Below are positions 3,346 to 11,676 of a stretch of DNA of 11,676 bases, one piece after another. The position numbers and the translations under genes are program-made. The stretch comes from Pleurocapsa sp. MO_226.B13. Its GTDB lineage: Bacteria; Cyanobacteriota; Cyanobacteriia; Cyanobacteriales; Xenococcaceae. Below the pieces are notes generated by a model, which worked only from the letters and a program-made list of their open reading frames with translations, had not been told where the DNA came from and searched no databases. Where the stretch lies: NCBI GenBank assembly GCA_030064795.1, contig JASJEI010000137.1, forward strand, positions 1 to 11,676. Reading direction: 5' to 3'. Each line of letters opens with the position of its first letter. The stretch's first letter is position 1.

Positions 3346-6075
3346 ATGAATCAAGATAACGTAGCATTTTCCTATCAAATAGGAGGAAGTCTAGCTAGTC
3401 AATCTCCTAGCTATGTAGAACGGCGAGCCGATCGCGAATTAGAACAAGCCCTCAAACAAGGGGAATTTTGTTATGTTTTAAACTCGCGACAAATGGGCAA
3501 ATCTAGTTTGCGGATCAGAGCCATGTCTAAATTACAAGCAGAAGGAACTGTTTGTATTTTTATTGACTTGACTGGCATGGGAATCCAAGATTTAACTCCA
3601 GAGAAGTGGTACGCAGGAATTGTCTGTTCTTTGGTTAGTGGTTATCAACTTAAATTTAACTGGCGTAGTTGGTGGCGAGACAAAAGAGATTTATTGTCTC
3701 CCGTACAACGATTGAGTCTATTTATTGAGTCGGTTCTGTTAGTAGAAATTCCCGAAAAGATTGTAATCTTTATTGATGAGATCGACCGAGTTCTCAGTCA
3801 AAAGTTTTCTTTAGATGACTTTTTTGCTTTTATTCATAGTTGCTATCAAAAACGTCAAGTAAATTCAGATTATAATCGTCTTACTTTTACTCTTTTAGGA
3901 GTAGCAGCACCGAAAGATCTCATCGATCGTAAAAATCAATCTCCTTTCGATCTGGGTAGAGCGATCGACTTGCGGGGGTTTGAGTTGAAAGAAGCTTTGC
4001 CTTTGGCGTTAGGTTTATGCGATAAAGTTCCTAACCCCGAACAAACATTAGCAGAGATTTTATCTTGGACGGGAGGACAACCTTTTTTAACTCAAAAACT
4101 ATGTCAACTAGTCGTAGAAAAAGGTAACCAGGCAGAAACAGTTGTCGTAGCCGAACTAGTGGAAAGATATATTATTGATGATTGGGAATCACAAGACGAA
4201 CCAGAACATCTACGGACAATACGCGATCGCCTGTGTTGGCGTAATTCTGCCCAGACTATTCGTTTACTTGGTTTGTACCGCCAGATTTTAGTAAGAGGAC
4301 AAATTCGGAGTAATAATAGTACAGAACATATGGAACTACGTTTATCGGGTTTAGTTGTGGAAAAACGGGGTTATTTAGAAGTTAATAATCCTATTTATGC
4401 TTGTGTGTTTAATTTAGCCTGGGTAGATCGACAATTGGCACAATTACGCCCTTACGATCGCCAACTCACAGCCTGGATCGCTACAGATTGTTCCAATCCA
4501 ACTTATTTACTCAAAGGAAAAGAATTACAAAATGCTCTGACTTGGGCGTTGAATAAAAGTTTGGCAGACATAGATTATCAATTTTTGGTTGCCAGTCAAG
4601 ATTTAGCCAAACAGGAAGTAGAAAATACCCTAGCAGCAGTAGAAGCAGCTAGCAAGCTATTGGCAACTACAAGCAAACAAGCACGACAAAGAGTAAACAA
4701 ACAAAAACTAGCGAAGAAATGGCTAGGCGCGATCGCGATAATAGTGACGGGTTGTATTTTAATTCTGCGTTCTGGAGGAATTTTACAAAGTTGGGAATGG
4801 AATTCACTCGATCGCTTTTTTACTTGGCGACTGACGGATGCTAAAGATCAGCAAGTGGTGGTAGTAACGATTGACGAAAAAGATATTAACAAGATGGGAC
4901 AATGGCCGATTAGCGATCGGAATCTAGCAACCGTAATTAAGAAGATCGAGGCTCAAAAACCAAGTGCGATCGCTTTAGATATTTACCGCGATTTACCCGT
5001 CCCCCCAGGAAATCAAGATTTACTTCGACTAATTAACTCTACTTCTAATTTATATATGGTTGAGAAGGTAATCGGTGATTCTATTCCACCTCCACCAACT
5101 GTAAGTCAACAACAAGTCGGTTTTGCCGACTTGGTGCTAGATAGCGATGGTAAAGTACGTCGGGCATTATTATCTCTGGTAGGGGAAGATCGACGGACAC
5201 GTTTGAGTTTGGCTACTAAATTAGCTTTACATTACTTAGAAGAGAGAAAAATTTACCTCGAAGCAATAGATCCCAGTCGCTATCGCTATCGTTTGGGAAA
5301 AGCTGTATTCGAGCGATTCGAGGGCAACGATGGCGGGTATGTGCGTGCAGATGCGGATGGATACCAAATATTACTCAATTATTGGGGAACAACAGCTAAT
5401 TTTCAACAGTATTCTCTCACCCAGATACTAGAAGGCAAGATTACTAGTAAAGAGCTTCGCGATCGCCTCGTTTTTATCGGCTCAACTGCTGAAAGCATTA
5501 AAGATTCCTTTTATACACCCTATAGCCAGAGATGGTTTCGTTCTCCCCAAACAATGCCAGGAGTGTTTATTCATGCTAACGTTACCAGTCAAATAATTGG
5601 TACTGCACTCGATAATCGTCCTTTACTTCTTACCCACAATCGATTTTTAGAATTCCTTTGGATATTTTTGTGGGCAATTACTGGCACGGCGATCGCTTGG
5701 AGATTGCCATCTGGAATTGGGATTGCCTTTTATGTCTGCATTGCCAGTATGTTATTGATTACCGTCTGTTACTTGGGGTTTTTAGCGGGTTGGTGGCTTC
5801 CTCTCATACCTTCACTACTAGCACTGACTGCAACTGTAATTACGGCGATCGCGATTAGAAACAAACAACGCGAGAAACTAAAATTTCAGCAGATCTTAGC
5901 CTTGCTCTTGGCAGCATATCGCGATCGTCCGATTGTGGGCAGAATCGCTTTAGAATACTTCAAACAGTCAGAAAATCAAGATAATTCCCACCTCATCGAG
6001 CGGAAAATCCAACAACTAATGTCCAACGATTGTAGAGACGTAGCATGCGATGCTAAGCGAGTCCTTGACCGATAG
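3346..6075 (+). CDS. AAA-like domain + CHASE2 sensor membrane protein
   Basis: Residue numbers here count from GTG 3319. The N-terminus matches the cyanobacterial AAA-like (AAA_35) ATPase module: YQIGGSL 19-25, a Walker A-like SRQMGKSS 56-63, Walker B IFIDEID 150-156, and a winged-helix-like extension to about 370. A charged, lysine-rich helical linker (about 430-466) leads to TM1 (about 468-488). Next is an extracytoplasmic CHASE2 domain (about 490-770; VVVVTIDEKDINKMGQWP, PSAIALDIYRDLP, RLVFIGSTAESIKDSFYTP), then three more membrane helices (about 778-850) and a roughly 70-residue cytoplasmic tail. It has no kinase or cyclase output domain, so it probably couples envelope sensing to the ATPase module. 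ATG 3346 is preferred because YQIGGSL usually lies near the start; GTG 3319 is an alternative, and neither has a clear ribosome site. The last dozen or so codons and the stop lie in a palindromic repeat, so the C-terminus has been rewritten. The gene is convergent with the DUF928 operon. Confidence 0.88.
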   Translation: MNQDNVAFSYQIGGSLASQSPSYVERRADRELEQALKQGEFCYVLNSRQMGKSSLRIRAMSKLQAEGTVCIFIDLTGMGIQDLTPEKWYAGIVCSLVSGYQLKFNWRSWWRDKRDLLSPVQRLSLFIESVLLVEIPEKIVIFIDEIDRVLSQKFSLDDFFAFIHSCYQKRQVNSDYNRLTFTLLGVAAPKDLIDRKNQSPFDLGRAIDLRGFELKEALPLALGLCDKVPNPEQTLAEILSWTGGQPFLTQKLCQLVVEKGNQAETVVVAELVERYIIDDWESQDEPEHLRTIRDRLCWRNSAQTIRLLGLYRQILVRGQIRSNNSTEHMELRLSGLVVEKRGYLEVNNPIYACVFNLAWVDRQLAQLRPYDRQLTAWIATDCSNPTYLLKGKELQNALTWALNKSLADIDYQFLVASQDLAKQEVENTLAAVEAASKLLATTSKQARQRVNKQKLAKKWLGAIAIIVTGCILILRSGGILQSWEWNSLDRFFTWRLTDAKDQQVVVVTIDEKDINKMGQWPISDRNLATVIKKIEAQKPSAIALDIYRDLPVPPGNQDLLRLINSTSNLYMVEKVIGDSIPPPPTVSQQQVGFADLVLDSDGKVRRALLSLVGEDRRTRLSLATKLALHYLEERKIYLEAIDPSRYRYRLGKAVFERFEGNDGGYVRADADGYQILLNYWGTTANFQQYSLTQILEGKITSKELRDRLVFIGSTAESIKDSFYTPYSQRWFRSPQTMPGVFIHANVTSQIIGTALDNRPLLLTHNRFLEFLWIFLWAITGTAIAWRLPSGIGIAFYVCIASMLLITVCYLGFLAGWWLPLIPSLLALTATVITAIAIRNKQREKLKFQQILALLLAAYRDRPIVGRIALEYFKQSENQDNSHLIERKIQQLMSNDCRDVACDAKRVLDR

Positions 6076-6106
6076 GGAATCCTTTAGGATAGGGCTACGT
6101 CTCTAC
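6032..6106. repeat. 75-bp palindromic dispersed repeat (MITE-like) at convergent gene ends
   Basis: GTAGAGACGTAGC (6032-6044) and GCTACGTCTCTAC (6094-6106) form a perfect 13-bp inverted repeat enclosing 49 bases. Arms of the GTAGAGACGT type are common dispersed repeats in cyanobacteria. The element contains the last codons and stop (6073-6075) of the AAA-CHASE2 gene. Its right arm contains the stop codon (6103-6105) of the DUF928 gene on the other strand. A structure of this size between convergent genes could act as a two-way transcription barrier or mRNA 3'-end stabiliser; that role is inferred. Confidence 0.8.
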
Positions 6107-8021: not shown

Positions 8022-8431
8022 GGTTAGATTTTCCTTTGGCTTTTGTTTTCTATGGTCTTATAGTAAAAATTTGAACGGCTAAAAACATCTGAAAAACGTC
8101 TCTAATCATTCCTCAACCAAAGCAATAACTATCCTGACACTTTCGCTGACTGCTAAGTATATATCTCTATAACTAAAGTCTTAATAATATTATTCGTAGG
8201 GGCGGTTCGCGATGCGGTTGCGCAAGCCCTAAAGGATTTGCGACACGAAGTTAGTCCTTTAGGGCTTCGCGGCACAAGTCGTTAGACGAGCGCGAGTCCT
8301 TTAGGGCGAACCGCCCTTACCTCATTGGTCTGCCTTGTTATATATAGCAAGCATTAAAGTATTTCAGATTAGTTCTGCCTTCTGCCAGTCTTAATCGCTT
8401 GGTAAGTTTCTAGCATCAGTTAGAGAATCTA
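8022..8431. other. Spacer holding a dispersed repeat, no gene seen
   Basis: This 410-bp stretch contains the 125-bp inverted-repeat element at 8196-8320 and otherwise AT-rich sequence. The left part (8022-8195) should carry the promoter of the 47-aa minus-strand ORF. I see no credible reading frame in the remainder. Confidence 0.5.
8196..8320. repeat. 125-bp palindromic dispersed element (MITE-like)
   Basis: GTAGGGGCGGTTCGC (8196-8210) and GCGAACCGCCCTTAC (8306-8320) pair at 14 of 15 positions. The interior contains three copies of a GCCCTAAAGGA-type segment in both orientations (8226-8236, 8265-8275 region, 8297-8307 region), giving nested hairpins. It is strikingly GC-rich against an AT-rich surround. 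It resembles the GTAGGGGCG-type repeats scattered in cyanobacterial genomes. There is no coding capacity. Confidence 0.75.
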
Positions 8432-9380
8432 GAGAAGCGGTCCAGTAGAAGATATTGACAAAAGAGCCAAAATATCTCTACTGAGTCGTGCCGATTTTTT
8501 TAGCTGTTTTCTGTTCAGATGGAACTTCCATCTGTGCGATGACGTGAAGATTATGGACTACCGCAGTCCGCCGTAAATCAAAGAGATTCTTGCCAGTCCC
8601 CAAATAACGGGCTTGGTTACCCTGCCAGCGACTTATATGAGCTAAACGTGAGTTCCACGCTGACTCGCTCTCGTAACTGAGAACGACCCAATTCTGTTAA
8701 CTGACGTTGGCGTAATTCTTGTAACAAAGATTCATCGGGATGAATAGAAACACTCCGTCCCCGAGAAGAAGTAGTGCATTGGTCTTTTAGAGGACCAACC
8801 TGACAATCACTCTGGGGAAAACGAGCTGTTTTGCCTTCCTCAAAAGGAATAGTCACACCGTGGGACAGCGAATCAGATTCTGAGCCCCATCCAAGACAAA
8901 AGCAGTTCGATCAAATCGCTCACCATTACGCACTCGCCAAGCTTTGCAGAAAATGGTTAAATCATTACTGCGCTGTTTAACCCAATGACAACTGAGATCA
9001 GCACGATCTATATGCAACTCAGTTAAAGTGACTTGTTGAAGAGCTAAGTCTTCGGCGATCGCTTACTCCTGTGTAGGCTTGTAAGATAATAGCTAAGGCT
9101 AATTGTGCAGGAGGGACTGGAGATCATCCTACCGTCGAATTTTTGTAGATTTTCGCTAGTTCTTGTTGAAATTCTTCGTCAAATAAGAGATGGCGATTTT
9201 TTCTTAACCAGATAAATAGCTTCGCAAAGCGAATTTTAGCGATGATTTTGACGGAACTTTCAGATAGTTCAATCGGTGGAGCCCAGTTTTGGGGACGCAT
9301 CTCCATAATCCTCATAACTTAGTGGTGAGATCACCCATAGATTATCATGTTTGTCAACCTATATTAGTGGACCGCTTCTC
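8432..9380 (-). mobile_element. Internally deleted IS1182-like element with both terminal repeats
   Basis: Terminal inverted repeats face each other: 8428-8462 and 9350-9384 match at 17 consecutive bases (TCTAGAGAAGCGGTCCA) and again at TTGACAAA. Taking GAGAAGCGGTCCA as the true end gives a 949-bp element with TA on each outer side as a possible 2-bp target duplication. GAGAATCTAG also occurs at 8423-8432 and 9390-9399. A full IS1182-type element needs a transposase gene of about 1.3-1.5 kb, so roughly half is missing. Both ends are present, so the element could in principle be moved by a transposase supplied elsewhere. Confidence 0.75.
8478..9300 (-). pseudogene. Broken IS1182-like transposase
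   Basis: Pieces of one transposase lie in order on the minus strand but in different frames. The N-terminus starts at ATG 9300 (MRPQNWAPPIELSESSVKI, then LFDEEFQQELAKIYK). Next is PPAQLALAIILQAYTGVSD, out of frame at about 9060-9120. Then comes EDLALQQVTLTELHIDRA and KAWRVRNGERFDRTAFVLDG. A piece at 8617-8856 contains CTTSSRGRSVSIHPDESLL and LRERVSVE. The C-terminus, HISRWQGNQARYLGTGKNLFDLRR, ends at TAG 8480-8478. About half of the usual protein is missing between GVSD and EDLALQ, and at least three frameshifts separate the rest. The deletion join coincides with GCGATCGC at 9055-9062. It cannot make active transposase. Confidence 0.8.
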
Positions 9381-9500
9381 TAGAAGATCGAGAATCTAGT
9401 CGCTCGTTTTAATTTCTATCAAATGAATGATGTTTGCTGGTTCAATTTCTAGCAAAATTAGAAATCGGAAATTCAAGCTACCAATTTTAGAGGATAGATA

Positions 9501-9947: not shown

Positions 9948-10151
9948 ATGAAAAATAAAACTCCTAATGATGCCAACTACGATCGCGCCATAACTTCTGC
10001 TGAAACCGAAGCCAGAATGGAAAGAGAAGGCGAAAATTTTAAGGAAACACCAGACCAAAAACAAGATATTGATACGACTTCTGGCTATACAACAGACCGC
10101 GAAGGTTTAGCTAATAATTATGCGATCGAACCTGAAATGTATGCAGGGTAA
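9948..10151 (+). CDS. Small hypothetical protein truncated by an ISAs1 insertion
   Basis: The ATG at 9948 follows GAAGG with 7 bases spacing. The 67-aa product is hydrophilic and lacks membrane segments: MKNKTPNDANYDRAITSAE, EARMEREGENFKE, TTDREGLANNYAIEPEMY. It looks like a short cyanobacterial protein family of unknown function in which a TDREGL-x-NNYA-x-EPEMY block is followed by further acidic sequence. That assignment is from memory and not certain. The last native codon is Tyr65. The final Ala and Gly codons and the TAA stop are made by the left end of the ISAs1 element starting at 10144. The native C-terminus should continue beyond 11674, outside the window. Confidence 0.7.
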   Translation: MKNKTPNDANYDRAITSAETEARMEREGENFKETPDQKQDIDTTSGYTTDREGLANNYAIEPEMYAG

Positions 10152-10495
10152 GCTCATCTAATTTGGTAGAAAATGTACTTGATAAAAGTCCCCTTGTATA
10201 ATCTTTTTCTTTAGAAGATAAGATGGTTGAGGTATATAATGAAGTCTTAATCTTAACTACGGTAAATTGAGACTATTAGGGGAAAGAATTGATGGCATTG
10301 GGCTTTGCACCTGTAACAGCTAAACAAGCAAAACTACCAGATAAAACCACAAAATTAACCCCAATTGCCGAAATACAAGGGAATTTATCTAACTACTTTT
10401 CTGAGATTAAAGATCCTAGAGTGACTAGAACAAAAAAACACTTGTTAACAGATATTTTAGTGATTGCCATACTTGCCGTAATTGCCGGAGCAGAA

Positions 10496-10518
10496 AGGCG
10501 CATAGTTCGCCGCATCTA
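10496..10518. repeat. Short GC-rich insertion in the ISAs1 transposase (about 23 bp)
   Basis: AGGCGCATAGTTCGCCGCAT occupies most of this interval, between codons for IAGAE and GWED, which are adjacent in the transposase family. GGCG and CGCC form a small hairpin. The insertion shifts the frame and brings in a stop at 10517-10519. Its size is like the small dispersed repeats known from Nostoc. Confidence 0.55.
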
Positions 10519-11087
10519 GGCTGGGAAGATCTCGAAAATTACGGTATTGCTAAGCAAGAATGGTTGTCAGAATTTTTAGAATTACCTTACGGAATCTAAG
10601 CGCGATGATACTTTTCGTCGCGTCTTTGAAAGGATCGAGCCTCAAGTTCTCGAAAGTAGTTTTACCAAATGGGTACAAGAACTAATTCCTTCTTTAGACA
10701 AACAGATTCTCCCAATTGATGGTAAATGTTTGAGAGGCTCTTATGACCGCGAAGGGGGATTAAAAGCTTTACATTTAGTAACAGCTTGGGTCGCACAACA
10801 AAATCTAACACGCTTGACAAATCAAAGTAGAAGACCATAAAACATGAAATTACCGCTATTCCAGCCCTATTAGAGTTAATTGATGTTACCGGAGCGATCG
10901 TGACCAAGCAATGCGATGGGAATGCAAACTGAAATAGTTCGCTTGATTCGTGCCAAAAAAGCAGATTATGTTTTGGCACTTAAAAGTAATCATCCAAACC
11001 TTCACACTCAGGTAAAAAATTGGTTCTCCCAAGCGATCGCCAATAACGCGCGAAGGGATTACAATCTCTTATGACCGTAGAGTTGAA

Positions 11088-11136
11088 AAAGCGCACCGCC
11101 TGCGCTGAGGTTTCCGAGCGCGTAAAGACGGAGCAA
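11088..11136. repeat. GC-rich insertion in the ISAs1 transposase (about 49 bp)
   Basis: This lies between codons for RRVE and EGHHRTEKR, which should be adjacent. It is GC-rich in an AT-rich gene and contains the stem GCGCT/AGCGC (around 11103-11122) enclosing GAGGTTTCC. A 49-base length shifts the frame. Exact borders are uncertain by a few bases because A and G runs repeat at both edges. Confidence 0.5.
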
Positions 11137-11398
11137 GAAGGACATCATCGCACAGAGAAAAGAATAGTTCGAGCTGTATCTCTGTCAGAGTTTGGTGGTC
11201 TCTACAAACAAGAACAATGGTCAGGTCTTCAAAGTATTGTGATGGTCGAACGAACCCGCCATCTGTGGAATAAAGTTACCCATGAAGTCCAGTTTTATCT
11301 GTCTTCTTTGCCGTGCCTTCGCTCATATCCTCGGCAATGCAATTCGCACCCATTGGGGAATTGAAAACCAAGTCCATTGGACGAAAGGACGTAACTTT

Positions 11399-11468
11399 GC
11401 GGTGCCCCCATTCGGGGATAAACGACCCCGCGGAGGAAACCTCCGCATGGGAACGCGCACCAAGAGAT
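11399..11468. repeat. Nested-hairpin GC-rich insertion in the ISAs1 transposase (about 70 bp)
   Basis: The insertion lies where the conserved transposase stretch around the NED motif should be continuous. Three nested pairings are visible: outer GGTGC (11401-11405) with GCACC (11457-11461), CCCC with GGGG (11406-11417), and GCGGAGG with CCTCCGC (11430-11446, loop AAA). This is much more ordered than the surrounding DNA and resembles a structured mobile repeat. Confidence 0.65.
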
Positions 11469-11676
11469 AATGAGGATCGTTGTCGCATTCGTTCGTGCCA
11501 CTCCCCTCGTAACTTCGCTCTCCTTAGACGCATGGCATTAAATGCCCTAAATCTAGAGAAAACTATTAAACGTAGTTTACGCCAGAAAATGAAGCGGGCT
11601 GCTATGAATAATGAATATATGATGACTGTTCTACAATCCTTTTGTCAATAGGGTTTGAGATGCTCTTACCCTGGAA

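Follow-up and report, generated by a model that had tools for sequence, protein, structure and literature searches.

In all likelihood, a dead pleurocapsalean transposon of the ISAs1 family has gathered insertions of three short, protein-less repeat families (I1, I2 and I3) that behave in the same way as the small dispersed repeats (SDRs) known from Nostoc. The transposon lies near the end of the window, by which we mean the whole 11,676-nucleotide stretch of Pleurocapsa sp. MO_226.B13 DNA analysed here. A sequence-only reading had described a transposase gene interrupted by several GC-rich, hairpin-forming inserts, and had proposed very small mobile repeats or a preferred target for them. The observation is real and its interpretation mostly right. 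The three families are dispersed, join their targets exactly, nest in one another and occupy identical sites in distant IS copies, and I2 and I3 change their hairpins in a compensatory manner, which together marks them as small mobile repeats. The same transposon DNA also undergoes recurrent block changes that add one base; in our reading these are a second process acting on it, rather than proven remains of the repeats.

The broken ISAs1 copy and its inserts

The element begins with CAGGGTAAGCTCATCT and ends with AGATGCTCTTACCCTG, and the terminal sequences CAGGGTAAG.. and ..CTTACCCTG are common to its relatives. Two profile matches place it in the ISAs1 family: the broken 5' piece in the window matches PF13808, and the intact 403-aa ORF of a relative (L001; L and G numbers denote loci and genomes) is an NF033564 ISAs1 equivalog (E 1.9e-125, profile search). 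The reading frame of the window copy is disrupted along its whole length, and the element, which is a dead transposon, extends beyond the 10496 to 11468 in which the inserts had been noticed. Alignment with 13 relatives, together with a frameshift-aware alignment to the L001 ORF, resolves its departures into three inserts of 23, 49 and 69 bp (about 23, 49 and 70 had been proposed) and seven +1 block changes, which account for the several smaller changes also noticed. The inserts are indeed GC-rich, at 56.5% (I1), 63.3% (I2) and 65.2% (I3) against 40.1% for the window. The element and its inserts are as follows; the alignment allows I1 and I2 to be shifted by 1-3 bases.

10144..11673, + strand: degenerate ISAs1-family insertion sequence (alignment with relatives; PF13808 in the 5' piece)
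10495..10517, + strand: I1, 23 bp, AAGGCGCATAGTTCGCCGCATCT, member of a dispersed family, after target AGA (alignment with relatives)
11089..11137, + strand: I2, 49-bp insert (48 in L204) of a GC-rich hairpin family (alignment; covariation)
11116..11119, + strand: block change within I2, hairpin 3' arm altered, +1 base (alignment of I2 copies)
11399..11467, + strand: I3, 69-bp insert consisting of the 51-bp form of L002 plus a nested 18 bp (alignment; covariance model)
11405..11422, + strand: hairpin of 18 bp with a CCCCATTCGGGG core, inserted within I3 (alignment)

At its left end (1-120) the window also contains the 3' end of another ISAs1 element, 89% identical to 11555-11674 and 92% identical to the Hyella copy L002.

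The inserts had also been noted to share short words. These are present (GCGCACC at 11091 and 11455, GAGGTTTCC at 11107, GGAAACCTC at 11435), but 13 of 200 shuffles also contained GCGCACC twice. The inserts stand out from chance because each belongs to a family dispersed elsewhere. The searches covered 27 genomes of the family that holds Hyella (G002), a panel to which the window's own genome does not belong.

I1 is absent from eight of the nine relatives that cover its site, the ninth being Pleurocapsa L080, which has I1 there too. In the panel, 57 places are listed in 11 of the 27 genomes, 15 of them exact, against 0 for a reversed-pattern control. The insert follows one of the trinucleotides AGA, ACA and AGT, and in 28 of 31 contexts it ends in the complement of that trinucleotide (TCT, TGT, ACT) (AGA..TCT 14, ACA..TGT 13, AGT..ACT 1), a count in which two contexts have a common left flank and from which one chance match with 5 mismatches was excluded; at least three further copies in G018, outside these 31, violate the rule. 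Since the GA of AGA is present in relatives without the insert, the pairing partner of I1 at that site is the target itself. Covariation in I1 is confined to these terminal trinucleotides. Two wider searches gave no copy with the same ends: a loose core occurred in 9 of 25 genomes outside Hyella's family, about as in the reversed control, and across 148 genomes of the order the matches outside the family lacked I1 ends, the one in G080 being a repeat of its own.

I2 is absent from nine of ten relatives that cover its site and occupies the same site in L204; matches occur in 16 of the 27 genomes. Family members read AAAGCGCACCGCC.GCGCTGAGG-TTT-CCTCAGCG-TA..GACGGAGCAAG. All 31 copies entered the covariation analysis, in which 95.7% of cells are paired, 4 of 15 pairs have changed on both sides, and double-change cells number 19 against 6.9 in shuffles. 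The block change inside the window's I2 recurs in L096, L130 and L131.

I3 is absent from eight of ten relatives covering its site, and L002, L204, L141 and L297 have it at the same site as the window, whose copy is matched by the I3 covariance model at E 1.1e-12. The nested 18 bp is missing at that point in L002 and L204; a nested form similar to that of the window occurs in two G006 copies, L146 and L163. The family, AGCGGTGCGACCC.GCGGAGG-TTT-CCTCCGC-..GGGAACGCGCACCAAGA, has matches in at least 19 of the 27 genomes. Among the best 150 candidates per genome, the covariance model returned from at least 2 to at least 138 matches in 8 of 22 genomes (at least 138 in G029, 90 in G201, 80 in G109, 77 in Hyella, 49 in G224, 17 each in Stanieria and G018, and 2 in G064) and none in the other 14, which include Microcoleus, Microcystis, Laspinema and Nostoc. 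Covariation was read from 23 of 35 matches, leaving out 12 that were I2 copies, partial or differently ended copies, or the window's nested copy: 99.4% of cells are paired, 7 of 16 pairs have changed on both sides, and 25 cells are doubly changed against 4.5 in shuffles. An Rfam search of the window and of four element-bearing loci matched no family.

The proposed hairpins are found in part. The window's I3 folds better than 200 of 200 shuffles (z -4.1), as do one I3 family sequence (z -4.1) and one I2 family sequence (z -3.7); for the I2 copy of the window there is no such advantage over shuffles (z +0.19), and the hairpin of I1 is weak (z -0.55 against 200 shuffles). The three-base loop of I2 and I3 is either TTT or AAA between the same arms, like a flipped hairpin.

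Two further ISAs1 copies deserve mention. In L297 (G009:C174:10000-12100) there is an I3-type element at codon 332 and another at codon 343, and the latter contains a further insert and measures 96 bp in all. L258 (G166:C100:5000-8700) is interrupted at codon 141 by a palindrome unlike I1-I3, whose length of 54 bp is divisible by three.

I2 also resides in the reading frame of another transposase. Stanieria sp. NIES-3757 (G015) has four copies of another IS, which we take to be of the IS630 type, with complete identity over 1240-1241 bp; three are chromosomal and one lies on a 143,540-bp plasmid (AP017376.1). In all four, I2 is in frame within a 387-aa protein bearing a DDE_3 domain, and this IS multiplied once it had acquired I2.

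Insertion sites, movement and comparison with known repeats

Judged by overlap with empty sites, I3 duplicates 0 nt of its target, I1 duplicates 0-1 and I2 no more than 3; at the I3 site of L204 three target bases are missing, so the junction is not exact in every copy. Nested copies include the 18 bp in the window's I3, I1 inside the I3-like L163, and the insert in L297. By eye, heptameric tandem repeats surround the copies L176, L187, L188 and L160.

Insertion sites recur. On a quick tree of 104 rows, 14 of which fill less than half of the columns (L080 only 26%), I1 at codon 68 takes two changes for two carriers, the window and L080. At codon 257, where the window and L204 have I2 and Cyanocohniella L040 has a 48-bp insert with different inner letters, but with the AAAGCG start and a CAAGACA end, three carriers take three changes; a 24-bp insert at codon 379 of L055 and L204 takes two for two. 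For I3 at codon 343, four changes serve five carriers (the window, L002, L204, L297 and L141, the last from a distant subfamily). The idea of a preferred target holds in part, as far as these recurring sites go. Gene conversion could be partly behind the sharing of sites among pleurocapsalean copies.

Insertion would have been called into question by undamaged copies of the IS that carry these bases as part of their frame. For I3 something close to this exists: in L002 it is in frame in an ORF with one upstream stop, and L204 and L141 likewise read open through it. Most relatives lack I3, however, so it is still an insertion.

How such repeats move can be sketched. An enzyme supplied in trans would copy them through a hairpin of single-stranded RNA or DNA, and the target might be chosen by short base pairing, through A-runs in the case of I2 and through the trinucleotide complementary to the 3' end in that of I1. 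We infer that the repeats may be active at present. Gene-less elements of less than 60 bp rank with the smallest mobile DNA so far described. The I1-I3 families have well-defined ends and structure, empty sites for comparison and a possible pairing with the target, which makes insertion directly testable, and a host IS that multiplied with a repeat in frame adds to this.

The closest comparison is with SDR1-8 of Nostoc punctiforme, which were reportedly described by Elhai et al. in 2008 and are said to be 21-27 nt long. Like them, I1-I3 are dispersed, very short, protein-less and present in many copies per genome; they nest and insert exactly, and some copies lie in heptameric tandem repeats (by eye). 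I2 and I3 have the hairpin with compensatory change, whereas I1 covaries only at its terminal trinucleotides. I1 at 23 nt fits the SDR length, and I2 (about 48-49) and I3 (51) exceed the range. Unlike the Nostoc repeats, I1-I3 are found in Hyella's family and a few other genomes. To our knowledge the 2008 work includes neither the three-base target complementarity seen in I1 nor residence in transposase frames. The three are seemingly new families of a known kind.

Rickettsia palindromic elements (RPE) are palindromic repeats that lie in frame inside protein-coding genes. I2 and I3 may resemble them in part of their copies: with both strands considered, 14 of 23 I3 and 7 of 31 I2 copies lie in a stop-to-stop frame that stays open for 25 codons or more in both directions, counts that come without a chance control. 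By description, I1-I3 differ from RPE in being shorter and in occurring in another organism. MITEs are non-autonomous, have an inverted-repeat structure and generate a target duplication of fixed length; I1-I3 are likewise non-autonomous with inverted-repeat structure, but have no such fixed duplication, the 0 nt of I3 being seen in both the window and L002.

PMC3116915 and PMC4390886 cite the SDR work of Elhai et al. 2008, and the latter describes exact insertion of SDR5 into the HIP1 octamer. In PMC3116915, REP/REPIN sequences with the RAYT transposase are short non-coding hairpin repeats thought to be moved in trans. A GTAG or CGTC tag at one end is their usual mark (compare PMC3733652). 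By eye, the consensus ends of I1, I2 and I3 have neither tag.

Block changes that add one base

In a block change, 3-6 nt are swapped for a block one base longer, at codons that recur in distant cyanobacteria. The window's ISAs1 copy has seven.

10597..10601, + strand: +1 block change at codon 95 (AAGCG, shared with L005, Pleurocapsa L080, Microcoleus L010 and L256/L280)
10810..10816, + strand: +1 block change at codon 167 (alignment with relatives and the L001 ORF)
10839..10843, + strand: +1 block change at codon 175 (new letters shared with L201, L005 and L100)
10906..10910, + strand: +1 block change at codon 197 (alignment with relatives and the L001 ORF)
11048..11051, + strand: +1 block change at codon 244 (alignment with relatives and the L001 ORF)
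11313..11319, + strand: +1 block change at codon 317 (shared with L005 and L100)
11383..11387, + strand: +1 block change at codon 339 (shared with L100 and L297)

We read 51 ISAs1 copies and 71 regions, partly overlapping sets, against the L001 ORF. Frameshifts in distinct contexts number 71 of +1, 14 of -1, 7 of +2 and 4 of -2; the excess of +1 over -1 has p about 2e-10, and with a single reference some shifts in subfamilies below about 55% identity may be alignment effects. Of the 60 distinct +1 sites, 22 have RAGCG or its complement among their new letters and 11 have GCGC, whereas random places yield 4.3% and 2.5%. At the 14 sites of -1 shifts, RAGCG or its complement occurs 0 times. Length-preserving base clusters were left aside, because many of them can be normal protein divergence.

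Such replacements are seen most directly between close copies. Within identical flanks, L283 and L288 differ as TGG-TCGA-GTG and TGG-AAAGC-GTG, and again as AAA-TTAGC-GAA and AAA-GAGCGG-GAA. Mismatch runs of at least three bases are clearest, among 116 pairs, in L284/L287 (11, with 0.30 expected) and L283/L288 (5, with 0.05 expected), where transversions outnumber transitions; pairs at 86-88% identity have a smaller excess, as in L232/L277 (5 against 2.61).

Another degenerate IS occupies about 8428-9384 of the window, bounded by terminal inverted repeats of 35 nt that are 83% complementary. Its comparison with L311 (G029) reveals, by eye, clustered base changes resembling block changes, which suggests that these extend beyond ISAs1. 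As for a general trait of coding genes, the CHASE2-AAA orthologs L111-L113 speak against it: their gaps are all multiples of three, as expected under selection. Among the papers listed in a literature search, mostly outside subscription, none described +1 block changes.

These changes could be multi-base mutations of an ordinary kind, produced by template switching, error-prone synthesis or short-patch illegitimate recombination and made to look recurrent by local hot spots. The excess of mismatch runs in L284/L287 and L283/L288 is what this explanation would lead us to expect, and the clusters in the window's second IS agree with it. We nevertheless consider it somewhat doubtful, given the strong +1 bias and the identical new letters found at one site across genera, as with AAGCG in the five carriers at codon 95 and GAAC at codon 285 (L100 and L290). 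Nor is a donor apparent: template switching inside the IS is rejected, since the longest self-match over each changed block averages 7.06 nt against 6.92 at random places, and no exact donor for the codon-95 change was found outside IS copies in 388 genomes. In that search the changed 19-mer was exact in four genomes only (G005, G006, G170 and G222), always in an IS copy, and had a one-mismatch place in eight more.

Alternatively, +1 changes would be the remnants of RAGCG-headed repeats that were later deleted or truncated, leaving a head of 4-8 nt at the cost of a few target bases. The RAGCG enrichment fits this, as does the start of I2 (AAAGCG in 29 of 31 copies and in the L040 insert), and inserts and +1 changes coincide at codons 66-68, 95, 257 and 376-379. 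The start of I3 resembles RAGCG less strictly, with AGCGG in 18 of 23 copies but AAAGCG in only 12 of 23, where the A's may belong to the target. Moreover, the whole inserts of the window and L002 lose no target bases (three are lost at the L204 I3), whereas block changes replace 3-6, and many of the latter have other letters (GAAA, GCGC, GGGA, AAAAC). Finally, G170, G152, G222 and G164 have RAGCG changes and no I3 model match; since genomes without detected I3 thus also have block changes, the link to the repeats is unproven, and we regard such an origin as rather unlikely.

Inheritance or gene conversion between IS copies could explain the sharing of inserts and changes without repeated events, and several common changes are in fact limited to pleurocapsalean copies (L005, L100, L201 and the window). 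We think this unlikely as a full account. Microcoleus L010 has the codon-95 change of Pleurocapsa and Xenococcaceae copies, yet over 56 flanking bases it departs from its unchanged kin L019 and L011 by just 1 and 2. The tree calls for a separate change in most carriers: codon 95 takes four for four (L256/L280 was lost in de-duplication, so that four of the five carriers are counted), codon 175 five for five (including L040 at 176), codon 339 four for four, codons 203 and 317 three for three each and codon 285 two for two. The exceptions are codon 359 (three for four), codon 337 (two for three) and the I3 site.

Full repeats and +1 rewrites might even be two outcomes of one machine, an undescribed site-directed rewriting of cyanobacterial transposon genes. 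It would cut at a recurrent site and then insert a hairpin repeat or replace 3-6 bases by a +1 block, often RAGCG, breaking the frame; if true, this would perhaps be a defence that disables transposons. We hold this for a long shot. Assembly or sequencing errors are hardly credible: although several relatives are metagenome-assembled genomes, isolates also contain the inserts (Hyella L002, Stanieria), the plasmid record NC_019700.1 holds the L264 copy with its two +1 changes letter for letter, and same-letter changes occur across records of different projects.

The IS DNA of many cyanobacteria undergoes discrete block rewrites from n to n+1 nt at recurrent sites, which we read as a process separate from the repeats. 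Such changes are a second mutational signature, for which we found no name, and which wrecks transposons at predictable places.

Other features of the window

At 8196-8320, arms of GTAGGGGCGGTTCGC and GCGAACCGCCCTTAC enclose a GC-rich cluster of repeated CCTTTAGGGC units, which resembles a further assembly of short repeats. At 6032-6106 an inverted repeat, GTAGAGACGTAGC..GCTACGTCTCTAC around a CCTTTAGGATAG stretch, lies at the end of the CHASE2-AAA gene and provides its last codons; CHASE2 orthologs of this gene in G002, G004 and G006 match at 66-73% and, together with the nearest IS copies on the tree, point to a pleurocapsalean source. The short ORF at 1974-2357, with DUF4277 (PF14104), is probably a truncated IS gene. 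Upstream of it, an ORF at 101-1876 has protein kinase and FGE-sulfatase domains; its last part reads like a kinase C-terminus, and the ORF is perhaps a fusion or deletion product.
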